Origin: Pseudonocardia petroleophila
GTDB taxonomy: Bacteria > Actinomycetota > Actinomycetes > Mycobacteriales > Pseudonocardiaceae
Reading direction: 5' to 3'
NCBI RefSeq assembly: GCF_014235185.1
Contig: NZ_CP060131.1
Span: 3,293,501-3,357,500, forward strand
DNA: 64,000 bases
Shown one piece after another: positions 60,986-64,000 of the stretch; within the stretch, counting starts at the first letter, position 1; each line of letters opens with the position of its first letter. The notes beneath the pieces were generated by a model that was given only the letters and a program-made list of their open reading frames with translations, ran no database searches and was not told where the DNA came from. A program made the translations under genes and the position numbers.

Positions 60986-62290
60986 TCAGGCTGCCGCCGC
61001 GGCACCGGCCGTCGCCGCGACGGCCCGGCCCAGTGCCGCCACCGCGAGGTCCAGCTCCTCGACGGTGATCGTCAGGGCCGGGCGGAACCGCACCGACCGC
61101 TCGCCGCTGCCCAGCATCAGCACCCGCTCGGTGCGCCGCAGGTGCGCCAGCACGGCGTCGCGGGCGGCGGTCGTCGGCAGGTCGGCGGCGCAGAACAGCC
61201 CCCGGCCGCGGACCGACGACAGGCCCGGGACGGCGGCGAGCGCGCCGAGCAGGTGCGAGCCGAGCTCCCCGGCCCGGGCGATCAGCCCGTCGGCCTCGAT
61301 GACCTCCAGGTAGCGCCGCGACCGCACCATGTCGGTGAGGTTCCCGCCCCACGTCGAGTTGATCCGGCCCGACACCGCGAACACGTTGTCGGGCACCTCG
61401 TCGACCCGCCCGCCGGCCATCACGCCGCAGACCTGCAGCTTCTTGCCGAACGCGACGACGTCCGGGGCGACGCCGAGCTGCTGGTAGGCCCACGCGGTGC
61501 CGGTCGTCCCGCCGCCGGTCTGCACCTCGTCGAGGACGAACAGGGCATCGTGCTCCACGCACAGCGCCTGCATCGCCCGGAGGAACTCCGGGCGCAGGTG
61601 GTTGTCGCCGCCCTCGCCCTGGATCGGCTCCGCGACGAAGCAGGCGATGTCGTGCGGGTGCGCCGCGAACGCCGCGCGGGCCTGCTCCAGCGCGCGCGCC
61701 TCGGCGATGCGGACGTCGCCGGGCAGGTGGGTGGCGGGCACGTCGACGCGGGGCCAGTCGAACGTCGGGAACAGCGCGGTCTTCACGGGGTCGGTGTTGG
61801 TGAGCGACATCGTGTAGCCGCTGCGCCCGTGGAAGGCGCGCGTCAGGTGCAGCACGCGCGTGCCGAGGTGCGCGGGCCGGCCGTGCGCCGCGTTGTGCCG
61901 GCGCTTCCAGTCGAAGGCGGTCTTGAGCGCGTTCTCCACCGCCGCCGCCCCGCCCTCGACGAGGAACAGGTGCGGCAGCGCGGGGTCCCCGACGACCCGG
62001 GCGAAGGTCTCGACGAACCGGGCCATCGCGACGGTGTAGACGTCGGAGTTCGACGGCTTGTTGACCGCCGCCTCCGTCAGCTCGGCGAGGAACGCGGGAT
62101 CGTCGACGAGCGCGGGGTGGTTGAGGCCCAGCGGCGCGGAGGCGAAGAAGCTGAACACGTCGAGGTGGCGGGTGCCGTCGCGGGCGTCGACGATCCACGA
62201 CCCCCGCGACGCGCGGGTGTCGAGGACCAGGTCGAACCCGTCGACGAGCAGGTGGCGACGCAGGGTCTCGTGGACGTCGTCGGGAGTCAT
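60986..62290 (-). CDS. lat: L-lysine 6-transaminase
   Basis: A 434-residue class III PLP aminotransferase of the Lat type: VFSFFASAPLGLNHPAL and VEGGAAAVENALKTAFDWKRRHN near the N-terminus, FVLDEVQTGGGTTGTAWAYQQLG, and the Schiff-base lysine in DVVAFGKKLQVCG near residue 300. It moves the epsilon-amino group of lysine to 2-oxoglutarate, giving piperideine-6-carboxylate. In mycobacteria Lat is starvation-induced; in cephamycin producers it starts beta-lactam synthesis, but no such cluster is here. The C-terminal Ala run (ATAGAAAAA) is low-complexity. Divergent from an Lrp/AsnC regulator. Confidence 0.92.
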   Translation of the reverse strand: MTPDDVHETLRRHLLVDGFDLVLDTRASRGSWIVDARDGTRHLDVFSFFASAPLGLNHPALVDDPAFLAELTEAAVNKPSNSDVYTVAMARFVETFARVVGDPALPHLFLVEGGAAAVENALKTAFDWKRRHNAAHGRPAHLGTRVLHLTRAFHGRSGYTMSLTNTDPVKTALFPTFDWPRVDVPATHLPGDVRIAEARALEQARAAFAAHPHDIACFVAEPIQGEGGDNHLRPEFLRAMQALCVEHDALFVLDEVQTGGGTTGTAWAYQQLGVAPDVVAFGKKLQVCGVMAGGRVDEVPDNVFAVSGRINSTWGGNLTDMVRSRRYLEVIEADGLIARAGELGSHLLGALAAVPGLSSVRGRGLFCAADLPTTAARDAVLAHLRRTERVLMLGSGERSVRFRPALTITVEELDLAVAALGRAVAATAGAAAAA

Positions 62291-62371: not shown

Positions 62372-62812
62372 GTGCCACCGACGGATCGTCAGCCCGACGA
62401 CCTGGACCGCCGCCTGCTCTCCCTGCTGGAGGCCGACGCGCGGGCGACGATGGCCGACCTCGGGCGGGCGGTCGGGCTGTCCCGCACCGCCGTGCTGGCC
62501 CGGGTCCAGCGCCTCGAGCGCGACGGCGTGCTGCGCGGCTACCACGCCGACGTAGCCCTGCCCGGCGCGGCGACCGCGCACCGCGCCCGCGTCGGCATCG
62601 TGGTCCGCACGACCGACGTCGCCGGGTACGCCGCCCGGCTCGCCGCGCTGCCCGGGTTCGCGGAGATCGAGACGGTGACGGGGGAGTACGACCTCATCGT
62701 GCTGGTCACCGTGCCGACGGCCGGGCAGCTCGACGCGCTGCTGGACCGGGTGCAGGGGTGGCGCGAGACGGTCCGGACAACCACCTGGATGGTGCTGACG
62801 CGGTACCGCTGA
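62372..62812 (+). CDS. Lrp/AsnC family transcriptional regulator
   Basis: A 146-residue feast/famine regulator. N-terminal winged helix (LDRRLLSLLEADARATMADLGRAVGLSRTAVLARVQRLERDGVLRGYHADV) and C-terminal RAM/AsnC effector domain (FAEIETVTGEYDLIVLVTVP). Divergent orientation next to lat matches the lrpA-lat pair of mycobacteria, so regulation of lysine catabolism with an amino-acid ligand is likely. GTG at 62372 is favoured by the leaderless -10; an in-frame ATG at 62363 is the alternative. Confidence 0.9.
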   Translation: MPPTDRQPDDLDRRLLSLLEADARATMADLGRAVGLSRTAVLARVQRLERDGVLRGYHADVALPGAATAHRARVGIVVRTTDVAGYAARLAALPGFAEIETVTGEYDLIVLVTVPTAGQLDALLDRVQGWRETVRTTTWMVLTRYR

Positions 62813-62893: not shown

Positions 62894-62930
62894 CTCGAAT
62901 CCCCCGAACGGCCCAGTCGGTTGACCGGGT

Positions 62931-63020
62931 GTGCTGATCATCGACCTCGAGGTCTTCTGGGTGACGCGTCGCCAGAACGCCTTCGACGGGCTGTGTCCGG
63001 GACAGCCCGCCCGTCGCTGA
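62931..63020 (+). CDS. Short ORF 1 with LExFWxxRRxxxFDxxC motif
   Basis: A 29-codon frame, GTG to TGA, in the 426-base gap upstream of the secreted SBP56-like gene. Residues 6-22 carry LEVFWVTRRQNAFDGLC, collinear with short ORF 2 about 120 bases downstream (nine identical positions of 17, no gaps, different codons at many). The end is CPGQPARR. No Shine-Dalgarno and no clear -10 are seen for this start, so its translation is uncertain. A sensing leader peptide is a reasonable guess; I do not recognise the family. Confidence 0.45.
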   Translation: MLIIDLEVFWVTRRQNAFDGLCPGQPARR

Positions 63021-63052
63021 CCCCGTCGACAGCACCCGATCCCGGAGTCCCG

Positions 63053-63130
63053 TTGCCCGTGCTCGAACCGTTCTGGACCGGCCGTCGTGCCGGCGACTTC
63101 GACGAGTGGTGTCGCCCGGCCGCGTGCTGA
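63053..63130 (+). CDS. Short ORF 2 with LExFWxxRRxxxFDxxC motif
   Basis: A 25-codon frame from TTG 63053 (or GTG 63059) to TGA 63130, ending 108 bases before the SBP56-like start. It contains LEPFWTGRRAGDFDEWC and ends RPAAC, so it holds two cysteines, one as the last residue. GGAG at 63044-63047 could serve either start. Collinearity with short ORF 1 despite divergent DNA argues for coding selection. Terminal cysteine codons recall cysteine-sensing leaders of sulfur genes, but the core motif is different from the RRHVD type seen before metY. Confidence 0.5.
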   Translation: MPVLEPFWTGRRAGDFDEWCRPAAC

Positions 63131-63238
63131 GGCAGGCGCCGAGCCGCTCCCGTGCCGGGCACGGGGGCGCTCGCCTGCGCGCGCGGCCGTGCCGGTCCCC
63201 GAACGCTCCCCGAACCATCCGCTCCCCAGGAGATCCGC
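63131..63238. other. Intergenic leader segment before the SBP56-like gene
   Basis: GC-rich, with repeated short inverted elements such as cgtgccgggcacg near 63152. No gene is visible. It ends with ccccaggagatccgc, which supplies the Shine-Dalgarno for the TTG at 63239. Confidence 0.5.
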
Positions 63239-64000
63239 TTGTCACCCCTGCACACCCGGCGACGGCGCCTCACCGCCGTCGCCGTCGCGCTCCCGCTGCT
63301 CGCGGGAGGCACGGCACTGGCCGGCCAGGCCACCGCCGAGTCCCCGGTCCACACCATCACCTCCGAGGTCCACGACAGCGTCGGCACGCTGTTCACCGCG
63401 ACCAACCACCTCGTCGACATCCCGGGCGTCGTCCCGGTCGGCGAGGAGGGCCACGTCGGCAAGGAGTACATCGTCGTCTGGGCCGGTGACGAGAACGTCG
63501 CCGACACCTCGGGCCAGGACATCGCCGACACCCCGCTGGCCGTCGGCGCGGTCAAGGAGCTCTCCGAGCTGCCCACCGACCTCCCCGGCCAGGACTTCCT
63601 CGCCGTCATCGACGCCGACGCGGACTCGGCCACCTACGGCCAGGTCGTCAACACCGTGACGCTCGGCCCGCTGCCGGAGAACGAGCCGCACCACATGCAG
63701 TACATCCACACGGCGGGCGACAGCATCTACGCCGGTGGCCTGTTCTCCGACATCACCTACGTGTTCGACACCGACAAGCTGCCGCTGCTGGAGCTCTCGG
63801 GCGTGAGCAACCCCGTCGACACCCCCTGCGGCTCGGTCCCCGACGCCTACTGGGTGCTCGAGGACGGCACCGCCTACGGCACGTACATGGGCGGCCCGGA
63901 CGTCCCCGGCCCCTGCCAGTACACCAACGGCGAGATCCGGGTCGGCAACGGCTTCGCGGGCAGCCCCGGCTCGGTCGTGCGCCTGGACCGCGAGGGCCGG
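63239..64000 (+). CDS. Secreted SBP56-like (selenium-binding protein / methanethiol oxidase family) protein, 3' truncated by window end
   Basis: 254 codons are in the window without a stop. The TTG start has aggaga six bases upstream. An Arg-rich n-region (TRRRRLTAVAVALPLLAGGTALAG) and a likely cleavage at GQATA-ES form a signal peptide. The mature part contains YIVVWAGDENVA, LAVIDADADSATYGQVVNTV, ENEPHHMQY and SDITYVFDTDKLPLL, resembling the beta-propeller of SBP56/methanethiol oxidases (LAVVD...SPTYGxV...HH). Bacterial relatives oxidise methanethiol to formaldehyde, H2O2 and H2S. The function is a family-level inference. Two cysteine-containing short ORFs and OmpR-type repeats lie upstream. 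Confidence 0.65.
   Translation, partial: MSPLHTRRRRLTAVAVALPLLAGGTALAGQATAESPVHTITSEVHDSVGTLFTATNHLVDIPGVVPVGEEGHVGKEYIVVWAGDENVADTSGQDIADTPLAVGAVKELSELPTDLPGQDFLAVIDADADSATYGQVVNTVTLGPLPENEPHHMQYIHTAGDSIYAGGLFSDITYVFDTDKLPLLELSGVSNPVDTPCGSVPDAYWVLEDGTAYGTYMGGPDVPGPCQYTNGEIRVGNGFAGSPGSVVRLDREGR

Follow-up and report, generated by a model that had tools for sequence, protein, structure and literature searches.

Organization of the locus

The window, that is, the whole stretch of 64,000 nucleotides of Pseudonocardia petroleophila DNA that was analysed, closes on a gene for a secreted SBP56/methanethiol-oxidase-like protein, preceded on the same strand by two short open reading frames (Table 1). 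The frames comprise 29 and 25 codons and are separated by 32 bases, and the peptides LEVFWVTRRQNAFDGLC and LEPFWTGRRAGDFDEWC share nine identities in a gapless 17-residue stretch, LExFWxxRRx3FDxxC, exactly as the preliminary description had it. When the motif was back-translated with free codons, the 64 kb window yielded two matches, the two frames themselves, and 100 dinucleotide shuffles yielded none. The protein encoded 3' of the frames had been called SBP56-like. The likeness stands in that both PF05694 (SBP56; E 8e-5, a marginal match below the cut-off) and NF052453 (methanethiol oxidase; E 2e-5, confined to a short stretch and far short of the cut-off) match it; on these matches it is only distantly SBP56-like. 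On the 5' side of the frames lie a gene for a class-III aminotransferase (PF00202; lysine 6-aminotransferase-like by reading) and, divergent from it, a gene for an Lrp/AsnC-type regulator. At several types of locus described below, a -10-like hexamer was seen by eye 6 nt before the ATG or GTG; neither window frame fits this arrangement, the spacing at the first being 4 nt.

Table 1 Features of the leader locus in the window.
Feature	Position	Strand	Description
Class-III aminotransferase gene	60986-62290	-	PF00202; 5' of the leaders
Lrp/AsnC-type regulator gene	62372-62812	+	Just 5' of the leaders
TTGACC, possible -10-like hexamer, weak	62921..62926	+	4 nt 5' of the leader 1 GTG; putative, by inspection
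Leader ORF 1	62931..63020	+	GTG start, TGA stop, 29 codons, MLIIDLEVFWVTRRQNAFDGLCPGQPARR; profile match E 1.3e-14
UGU Cys codon of leader 1 (W+12)	62994..62996	+	Codon reading and pattern match
GGAG, Shine-Dalgarno-like	63044..63047	+	5 nt 5' of the leader 2 TTG; putative, from the letters
Leader ORF 2	63053..63130	+	TTG start, TGA stop, 25 codons, MPVLEPFWTGRRAGDFDEWCRPAAC; profile match E 2.8e-14
UGU Cys codon of leader 2 (W+12)	63110..63112	+	Codon reading and pattern match
Long RNA hairpin	63118..63188	+	5' arm formed by the last leader 2 codons; fold of 63105-63195; GGCCGCG (63118-63124) with CGCGGCC (63182-63188), GCAGGCG (63132-63138) with CGCCTGC (63172-63178)
AGGAG, Shine-Dalgarno-like site of the downstream gene	63228..63232	+	Read from the letters
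Secreted SBP56/methanethiol-oxidase-like gene	63239..64000, continues past the window end	+	TTG start; L001:2040-3599

A family of leader peptides

Two more sites in this genome came up when the leader region was used as a DNA query. A four-member profile then gave seven strong matches, one weaker match (L019, E 0.004) and two no better than chance (L020, E 0.88; L021, E 9.1), the last two of which were dropped; related peptides occur at six other places of the genome, with E values of 1e-17 to 4e-3. With an eight-member profile, eight matches in this genome had E values of 1e-3 or lower. The genes 3' of the six other leaders encode a peroxiredoxin (L012), a beta-carbonic anhydrase (L013), an SBP_bac_1 transporter protein (L016), an SsuA-type sulfonate-binding protein (L017), a TauE/SafE exporter (L018) and a cysteine dioxygenase-family protein (L019). 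The top PDB match of the carbonic anhydrase is Rv1284 (E 1e-75), with COS hydrolase (2e-38) and CS2 hydrolase (6e-25) lower. About 5 kb from the L018 leader, a further short leader, MGTPLARRRHVDLCRTSAAL (L005 1501-1563), precedes a gene for a FAD/NAD(P)-binding-like protein, named by reading.

The preliminary description had called for a search of related genomes for the motif. Within the genus, 39 of 40 genomes (the present one included) carry the family, with 127 profile matches and up to nine per genome. Outside the genus its occurrence is patchy, because it was found in 13 of the 396 genomes of a phylum sample (21 candidates scored per genome) and, with a broader 16-member profile, in 14 of the 148 genomes and six of the 82 genera of the class. 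The 127 genus matches and 12 distant ones form the set of 139 instances used below; 132 of them carry the full regular-expression core, and conservation and downstream genes were counted on these 132, codons on all 139. Set A3 (bCA) holds 19 of 21 members, without L118 and L040, and set A4 is without L208 and L223, where no start was found.

GTDB species genomes were also scanned with the pattern FW..RR...FD[EQ].C, either Cys codon being allowed. The scan returned at least 120 stretches with at least 122 matches, some of them loci of the genus profile search, and all matches listed lie in short ORFs. Among those listed, 119 stretches with 121 matches are actinobacterial, from Pseudonocardia, Actinomycetospora, Mycobacterium, Mycolicibacterium, Rhodococcus, Streptomyces, Kitasatospora, Embleya, Yinghuangia, Frankia, Protofrankia, Kutzneria, Streptoalloteichus, Actinopolymorpha, Motilibacter and unclassified relatives. 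The remaining stretch (L299) belongs to an acidobacterial bin, and its peptide seems unrelated outside the pattern. The viral contig collection held no pattern match, and plasmids no DNA match to the leader region. NCBIfam and Pfam, queried with 16 diverse members, returned no described family with the motif and a literature search with LExFWPSRR-type strings found no paper, in agreement with the earlier statement that no such family is described; the motif is likewise absent from the available portions of PMC1262725, PMC4633059, PMC9094748, PMC9031893, PMC13236596, PMC8632094, PMC1183508 and PMC8079986.

The tandem arrangement recurs at three further loci (L094, L127 and L137). Counterparts of the first leader were recognised at L094, L102, L127 and L137, and of the second at L094, L127 and L137. 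In two other species (L094, L137) the pair lies upstream of an SBP56-type gene, as in the window, and in a third (L127, the same as L209) it lies upstream of a gene for a 615-residue protein without a Pfam match. At L102 the first leader is kept and the SBP56-like gene is broken.

Genes downstream of the leaders

On the same strand and on the downstream side, to which the search was confined, the nearest representative 3' of the 132 leaders is CDO in 31 cases, TSUP in 27, bCA in 21, SsuA in 13, a Streptomyces-type wHTH in nine, SBP56 in five, and LLM, SBP_bac_1, peroxiredoxin and a glycosidase-like protein in two each; 18 leaders have none. Most leaders precede sulfur or thiol genes, namely those for a CDO-type dioxygenase, a TauE/SafE exporter, an Rv1284-type carbonic anhydrase, SsuA, SBP56 and APS kinase. 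This supports the earlier view of leader peptides before a sulfur-related gene; as to whether copies always precede SBP56-like or sulfur genes, sulfur or thiol genes follow at most loci, and SBP56 is nearest in 5 of 132.

Of the 114 leaders whose downstream gene was recognised, 107 lie no more than 220 nt from it. Among the seven exceptions, the SBP56 match lies 5' of the leader at L102 and the distance is 304 nt at L137. An APS kinase gene intervenes before the glycosidase-like matches at 653 and 710 nt (L036 tested, L031 by reading), and another transporter before the TSUP matches at 1016-1200 nt (L074 YeiH-type, L136 by reading, L087 tested as TauE). The first coding ORFs after the 18 leaders without a representative encode YeiH-type exporters, APS kinase, a second TauE-type protein, SBP_bac_5-like proteins, 2OG oxygenases, singletons and three proteins of 73-80 residues. 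Pfam confirmed APS kinase (L036, L100), PF03601/YeiH (L072), TauE (L087), SBP_bac_5 (L119) and 2OG-FeII oxygenase (L147), that is, one or two per kind, and the remaining names in this group rest on reading. The 73-80 residue proteins directly after the leaders L086, L090 and L110 are similar to one another; the one at L090 has no Pfam match.

Within 400 nt of the first 81 scan matches (80 stretches) lie TSUP genes in 26 cases, bCA in 12, CDO in seven, SsuA in three, wHTH in two, LLM in two and other genes in 29. These 80 are the loci with classified downstream genes among the 120 listed, the other 40 (L266-L305) having been read for codon and frame only. The other genes include MetY-type (L188 and L241 tested, L245 by reading) and PF03601/YeiH-type (L191, L233) genes, a sulfatase-modifying factor (L236), an NtaA/DmoA-like monooxygenase just under the cut-off (L224), an ORF with 2OG-oxygenase and Cys/Met-metabolism domains (L193) and SBP_bac_5 in Frankia (L192).

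At L054-L062, L195 and L256 the leader stands before the gene of an uncharacterised OmpR-type winged-helix protein, which at L055 matches PF00486 only. This protein is a candidate sulfur regulator.

Coding selection

Over 16 core codons, dN/dS is 0.32 for the bCA group (n = 21), 0.30 for CDO (n = 31), 0.26 for TSUP (n = 27), 0.09 for SsuA (n = 13) and 0.05 for wHTH (n = 9), and in the last group third codon positions account for five of the seven variable columns. Two controls were computed for the bCA, CDO, TSUP and SsuA groups: in the +1 frame the ratios are 1.08, 1.59, 1.99 and 6.26, respectively, and in the DNA 102-150 nt upstream they are 0.91, 1.00, 0.99 and 1.08. Judged by these ratios, the leader frame is under purifying selection. 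The dN/dS check that the preliminary description had suggested, carried out here on five operon groups, supports its reading of the pair as translated peptides and not a DNA repeat.

A position-specific UGU codon

The cysteine lies exactly 12 codons after the motif tryptophan (W+12) in 137 of the 139 profile matches, and TGG stands at W in 138. The residues 3-16 codons before this cysteine are strongly conserved, and the distance from Trp to the Cys codon is constant. At W+12, 136 leaders carry TGT, one carries TGC (L120) and two carry TGA (L138, L145). Elsewhere between W-4 and the stop of the 139 leaders, by contrast, cysteine is spelled TGC 58 times and TGT 5 times, and in 111 downstream genes the tally is 113 TGC to 2 TGT. 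Synonymous sites elsewhere in the leaders vary (pS 0.22-0.43). The Fisher value for W+12 against the other Cys codons is 3e-43, which is descriptive since the instances are related to one another. Among the scan matches listed, all 121 actinobacterial ones have TGT, and the sole TGC among at least 122 is the acidobacterial L299. The contrast with neighbouring Cys codons is weaker in the scan set because these number 24 UGC and 16 UGU in the first 81 matches, the extra UGU coming largely from mycobacterial leaders with TGT TGT.

At L138 and L145 the usual UGU position is occupied by the stop codon UGA, and the frame ends there. Selenocysteine at these two positions was considered and set aside, the frame ending there and nothing else supporting it.

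The bases around TGT vary, with C in 113, G in 24 and A in 2 before it and C in 116, T in 20 and A in 3 after it. A local GAC/GUC hairpin was ruled out as the cause of UGU, since all six variants with Ser in place of Asp (L146, L148, L152, L153 and the second leaders of L127 and L137) keep TGT. A dedicated UGU-reading tRNA was also ruled out: among 45 tRNA matches, the P. petroleophila genome has a single tRNA-Cys gene, with anticodon GCA. In passages of PMC1183508, the synonymous choice of the regulatory codon matters for attenuation and is explained through isoacceptors. With a single tRNA-Cys isoacceptor, UGU must have another reason, possibly slower wobble decoding.

RNA structure downstream of the leaders

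In the window, the fold of 63105-63195 has a predicted energy of -64.1 kcal/mol (z -2.37; 5 of 200 shuffles were equally stable), and a similar hairpin arrangement was read by eye at L094. Alignments of 29 CDO, 20 bCA and 20 TSUP loci were folded with RNAalifold, without L105, L112 and loci whose gene start lies past the length limit, and stems were counted in 29 of 31 CDO, 23 of 27 TSUP, 21 bCA, 13 SsuA and nine wHTH loci.

The last leader codons of the bCA group pair with a downstream segment (RNAalifold -15.0 versus -0.6 ± 0.9 for column shuffles). The base stem is paired in 96% of cells, and shifting the partner segment lowers pairing from 84% to 33-55%. Covariation is modest, with a score of 0.093 versus 0.070 ± 0.010 shuffled, 83.8% of cells paired versus 82.4% shuffled and two-sided changes at 3 pairs versus 1.8; stems of at least five pairs, in 14 of 21 loci versus 10.7 ± 2.2 shuffled, are not significant. 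The CDO group has such stems in 24 of 29 loci versus 6.6 ± 2.2 (maximum 14 in 300 shuffles). These perfect stems usually join CGAGC with GCTCG, and at L154 and L155 the arms differ yet match; the RNAalifold value of this group, -0.5, equals that of shuffles. Stems in the TSUP (12 of 23 versus 4.4 ± 1.8 shuffled) and SsuA (6 of 13 versus 1.4 ± 1.1) groups have an arm that includes the codons just before UGU. The wHTH count (2 of 9 versus 4.3 shuffled) is not significant. Stems in mycobacterial TSUP spacers average 6.62 versus 5.47 ± 0.24, with a hairpin that begins 18-24 nt past the leader in 20 of 21 and matching changes seen by eye.

Across 132 leaders the mean 60-nt folding z is -0.53 at best and the leader-tail duplex z -0.21, only bCA being clearly lower. 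These weak z-scores, the CDO RNAalifold value and the wHTH and bCA stem counts rule out one universal RNA structure. Three loci compared with Rfam gave a single match, SNORD103, at E 0.57 and below the gathering score. The peptide and UGU are constant, the structures vary between operons, and shared RNA structure is weak.

Proposed mechanism and alternatives

There is good support for the view that the window frames are translated leader peptides acting in cis on a sulfur regulon. The preliminary description had proposed a leader switch or a peptide family controlling a sulfur gene; the family and its sulfur-gene context were found, and the regulation itself is what we infer. Beyond that proposal, the pair is one case of a regulon-wide family in which a Cys codon is fixed as UGU. 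A near-invariant and otherwise rare UGU before sulfur genes suggests that pausing there may switch them.

With a probability of roughly 60%, the leaders act through conserved nascent residues that, at a fixed spacing, help the ribosome to stall at a slow UGU and so alter the downstream RNA. When Cys-tRNA is scarce, the ribosome would stall on the leader with UGU in the A site, wobble reading making that single position slow. The nascent LExFWPSRRxxxFD, with its Trp 12 residues back, would strengthen or tune the stall. The stalled ribosome would cover the last leader codons, which in some operon types are the 5' arm of a downstream hairpin; a hairpin that is terminator-like or blocks access would thereby be prevented, and the sulfur gene expressed. 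In the window two such leaders would act one after the other: leader 1 lies close to where the transcript presumably begins, and leader 2, led by its Shine-Dalgarno-like site, is joined directly to the -64 kcal/mol hairpin. Several observations count against stalling: the leaders have one or two Cys codons where known attenuators have runs, a cysteine dioxygenase should be switched on when cysteine is plentiful and not when it is scarce, the groups have no one RNA structure in common, and two members have UGA and one UGC. A wider form of the proposal, in which cysteine arrest peptides that sense both nascent chain and codon are widespread in actinobacteria, with a single fixed UGU in the LExFW and Ms5788A families and in tandem in the window, is put forward only tentatively.

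A plain cysteine-codon attenuator of the Ms5788A kind, in which tRNA-Cys charging alone counts and no residue is sensed in the tunnel, is doubtful. Ms5788A leaders do have a similar gene context and the same UGU rule, and FWPSRRITHFDE and FWPLTRRRAVDL are weakly alike (probability 25%), but the near-constant place of the cysteine and the conserved residues ahead of it would be unneeded if the codon alone counted. These same two features would suit an arrest peptide whose nascent chain senses another ligand (sulfide, sulfite, a thiol or an oxidant), UGU being the arrest codon and not a cysteine sensor, as would targets that include sulfite-type export, peroxiredoxin and thiol oxidation; against this, APS kinase, MetY and SsuA typically belong to responses to low sulfur, and we consider this reading unlikely. 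Conserved residues, a Cys and as many as nine copies in a genome might also speak for small trans-acting peptides, either metal- or thiol-binding or RiPP precursors. This is very improbable: the same-strand downstream search places the leaders close before diverse sulfur genes, a trans peptide would not need a fixed synonymous codon at one position, and no modifying enzyme is among the first downstream genes examined. Least probable of all is a DNA or RNA element (an operator or GAC/GUC hairpin) that merely resembles coding sequence, for although TTCGAC...TGTCG could form a 4-bp hairpin and further pairing occurs in the CDO, TSUP and SsuA groups, the in-frame dN/dS falls far short of 1 while that of the shifted frame exceeds it, UGU stays when the Asp codon is lost and its flanking bases vary.

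The unnamed family marks, in many actinobacteria, a sulfur regulon of thiol dioxygenase, TauE/SafE and YeiH-type exporters, SsuA, APS kinase, MetY, a COS-hydrolase-like carbonic anhydrase and SBP56, and therefore predicts the regulation and function of poorly annotated neighbours. The position-specific UGU rule raises, in a form that lends itself to a one-base experiment, the general question of what difference one synonymous codon over another would make to a leader peptide when a single tRNA reads both.

Comparison with known systems

In the arrest peptides TnaC and SecM, the conserved residues include a Trp that lies about 11-12 residues ahead of the position at which the ribosome stalls. 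The LExFW leaders resemble them in having conserved residues, a Trp among them, at a fixed distance from the candidate stall codon; they have no sequence relation to them, and stalling in LExFW leaders is a proposal. Unlike classical ribosome-mediated transcription attenuators, they lack a run of regulatory codons.

Cysteine leader peptides of mycobacterial cys operons and of P. acnes and B. longum cbs appear in sections of Seliverstov et al. 2005 (PMC1262725). As far as those sections describe them, they too are candidate peptides without an obvious terminator and with sulfur genes 3', but they carry Cys-codon runs near the stop, whereas the LExFW leaders have a single fixed UGU behind a conserved peptide. 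Portions of PMC4633059 describe uORFs, Cys-rich and leaderless, that precede cysA2, Rv0485 and nirA. The uORFC-8-2 motif upstream of cysS in Rhodobacterales, as given in parts of PMC8632094, likewise combines a Cys-codon uORF with RNA stems, but has two tandem Cys codons with UGC dominant and an intrinsic terminator with a U run, and belongs to another phylum.

Leaders of the Ms5788A type occur in 40 of 40 genomes of the genus and 82 of 118 of the class, and in P. petroleophila they coexist with the LExFW type. The family, of Cys-rich leader peptides (NCBIfam NF042933), was reportedly described by Canestrari et al. 2020. By profile, the LExFW leaders are not members: window peptide 2 scores 14.2 bits against a cut-off of 45, the other three scanned peptides have no match, and one of 16 diverse family members matches, at E 0.027. 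Both types are short uORFs directly before sulfur genes, on the same strand and in actinobacteria, with an RR...D motif followed by Cys and one position of invariant UGU. Unlike the Ms5788A peptides (KRRAVDLCRVxxCLC or poly-Cys), the LExFW leaders read LExFWPSRRxxxFDxxC, with Cys at W+12 and sometimes one or two neighbours, lack several Cys codons near the stop and precede different target genes. By reading, CTCCTGAG, at the end of the Ms5788A leader of L004, is complementary to the Shine-Dalgarno segment CTCAGGAG.

In the genus, 30 of the 31 Ms5788A leaders examined carry TGC at both D+2 and D+7 and TGT at D+9, and the remaining one (L005) ends before D+9. In the class (n = 30), every D+9 is TGT; TGC outnumbers TGT by 27 to 3 at D+2 and by 21 to 3 at D+7, where the other 6 are not Cys. 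The one-position UGU rule thus holds at 60 of the 61 loci examined (L004, L157-L185, L306-L335); it does not appear in the available text of the cysteine-leader literature, a scope outside which Canestrari et al. 2020 lies. If the proposed reading is true, synonymous codon choice itself would be part of the sensor in at least two distinct leader families.
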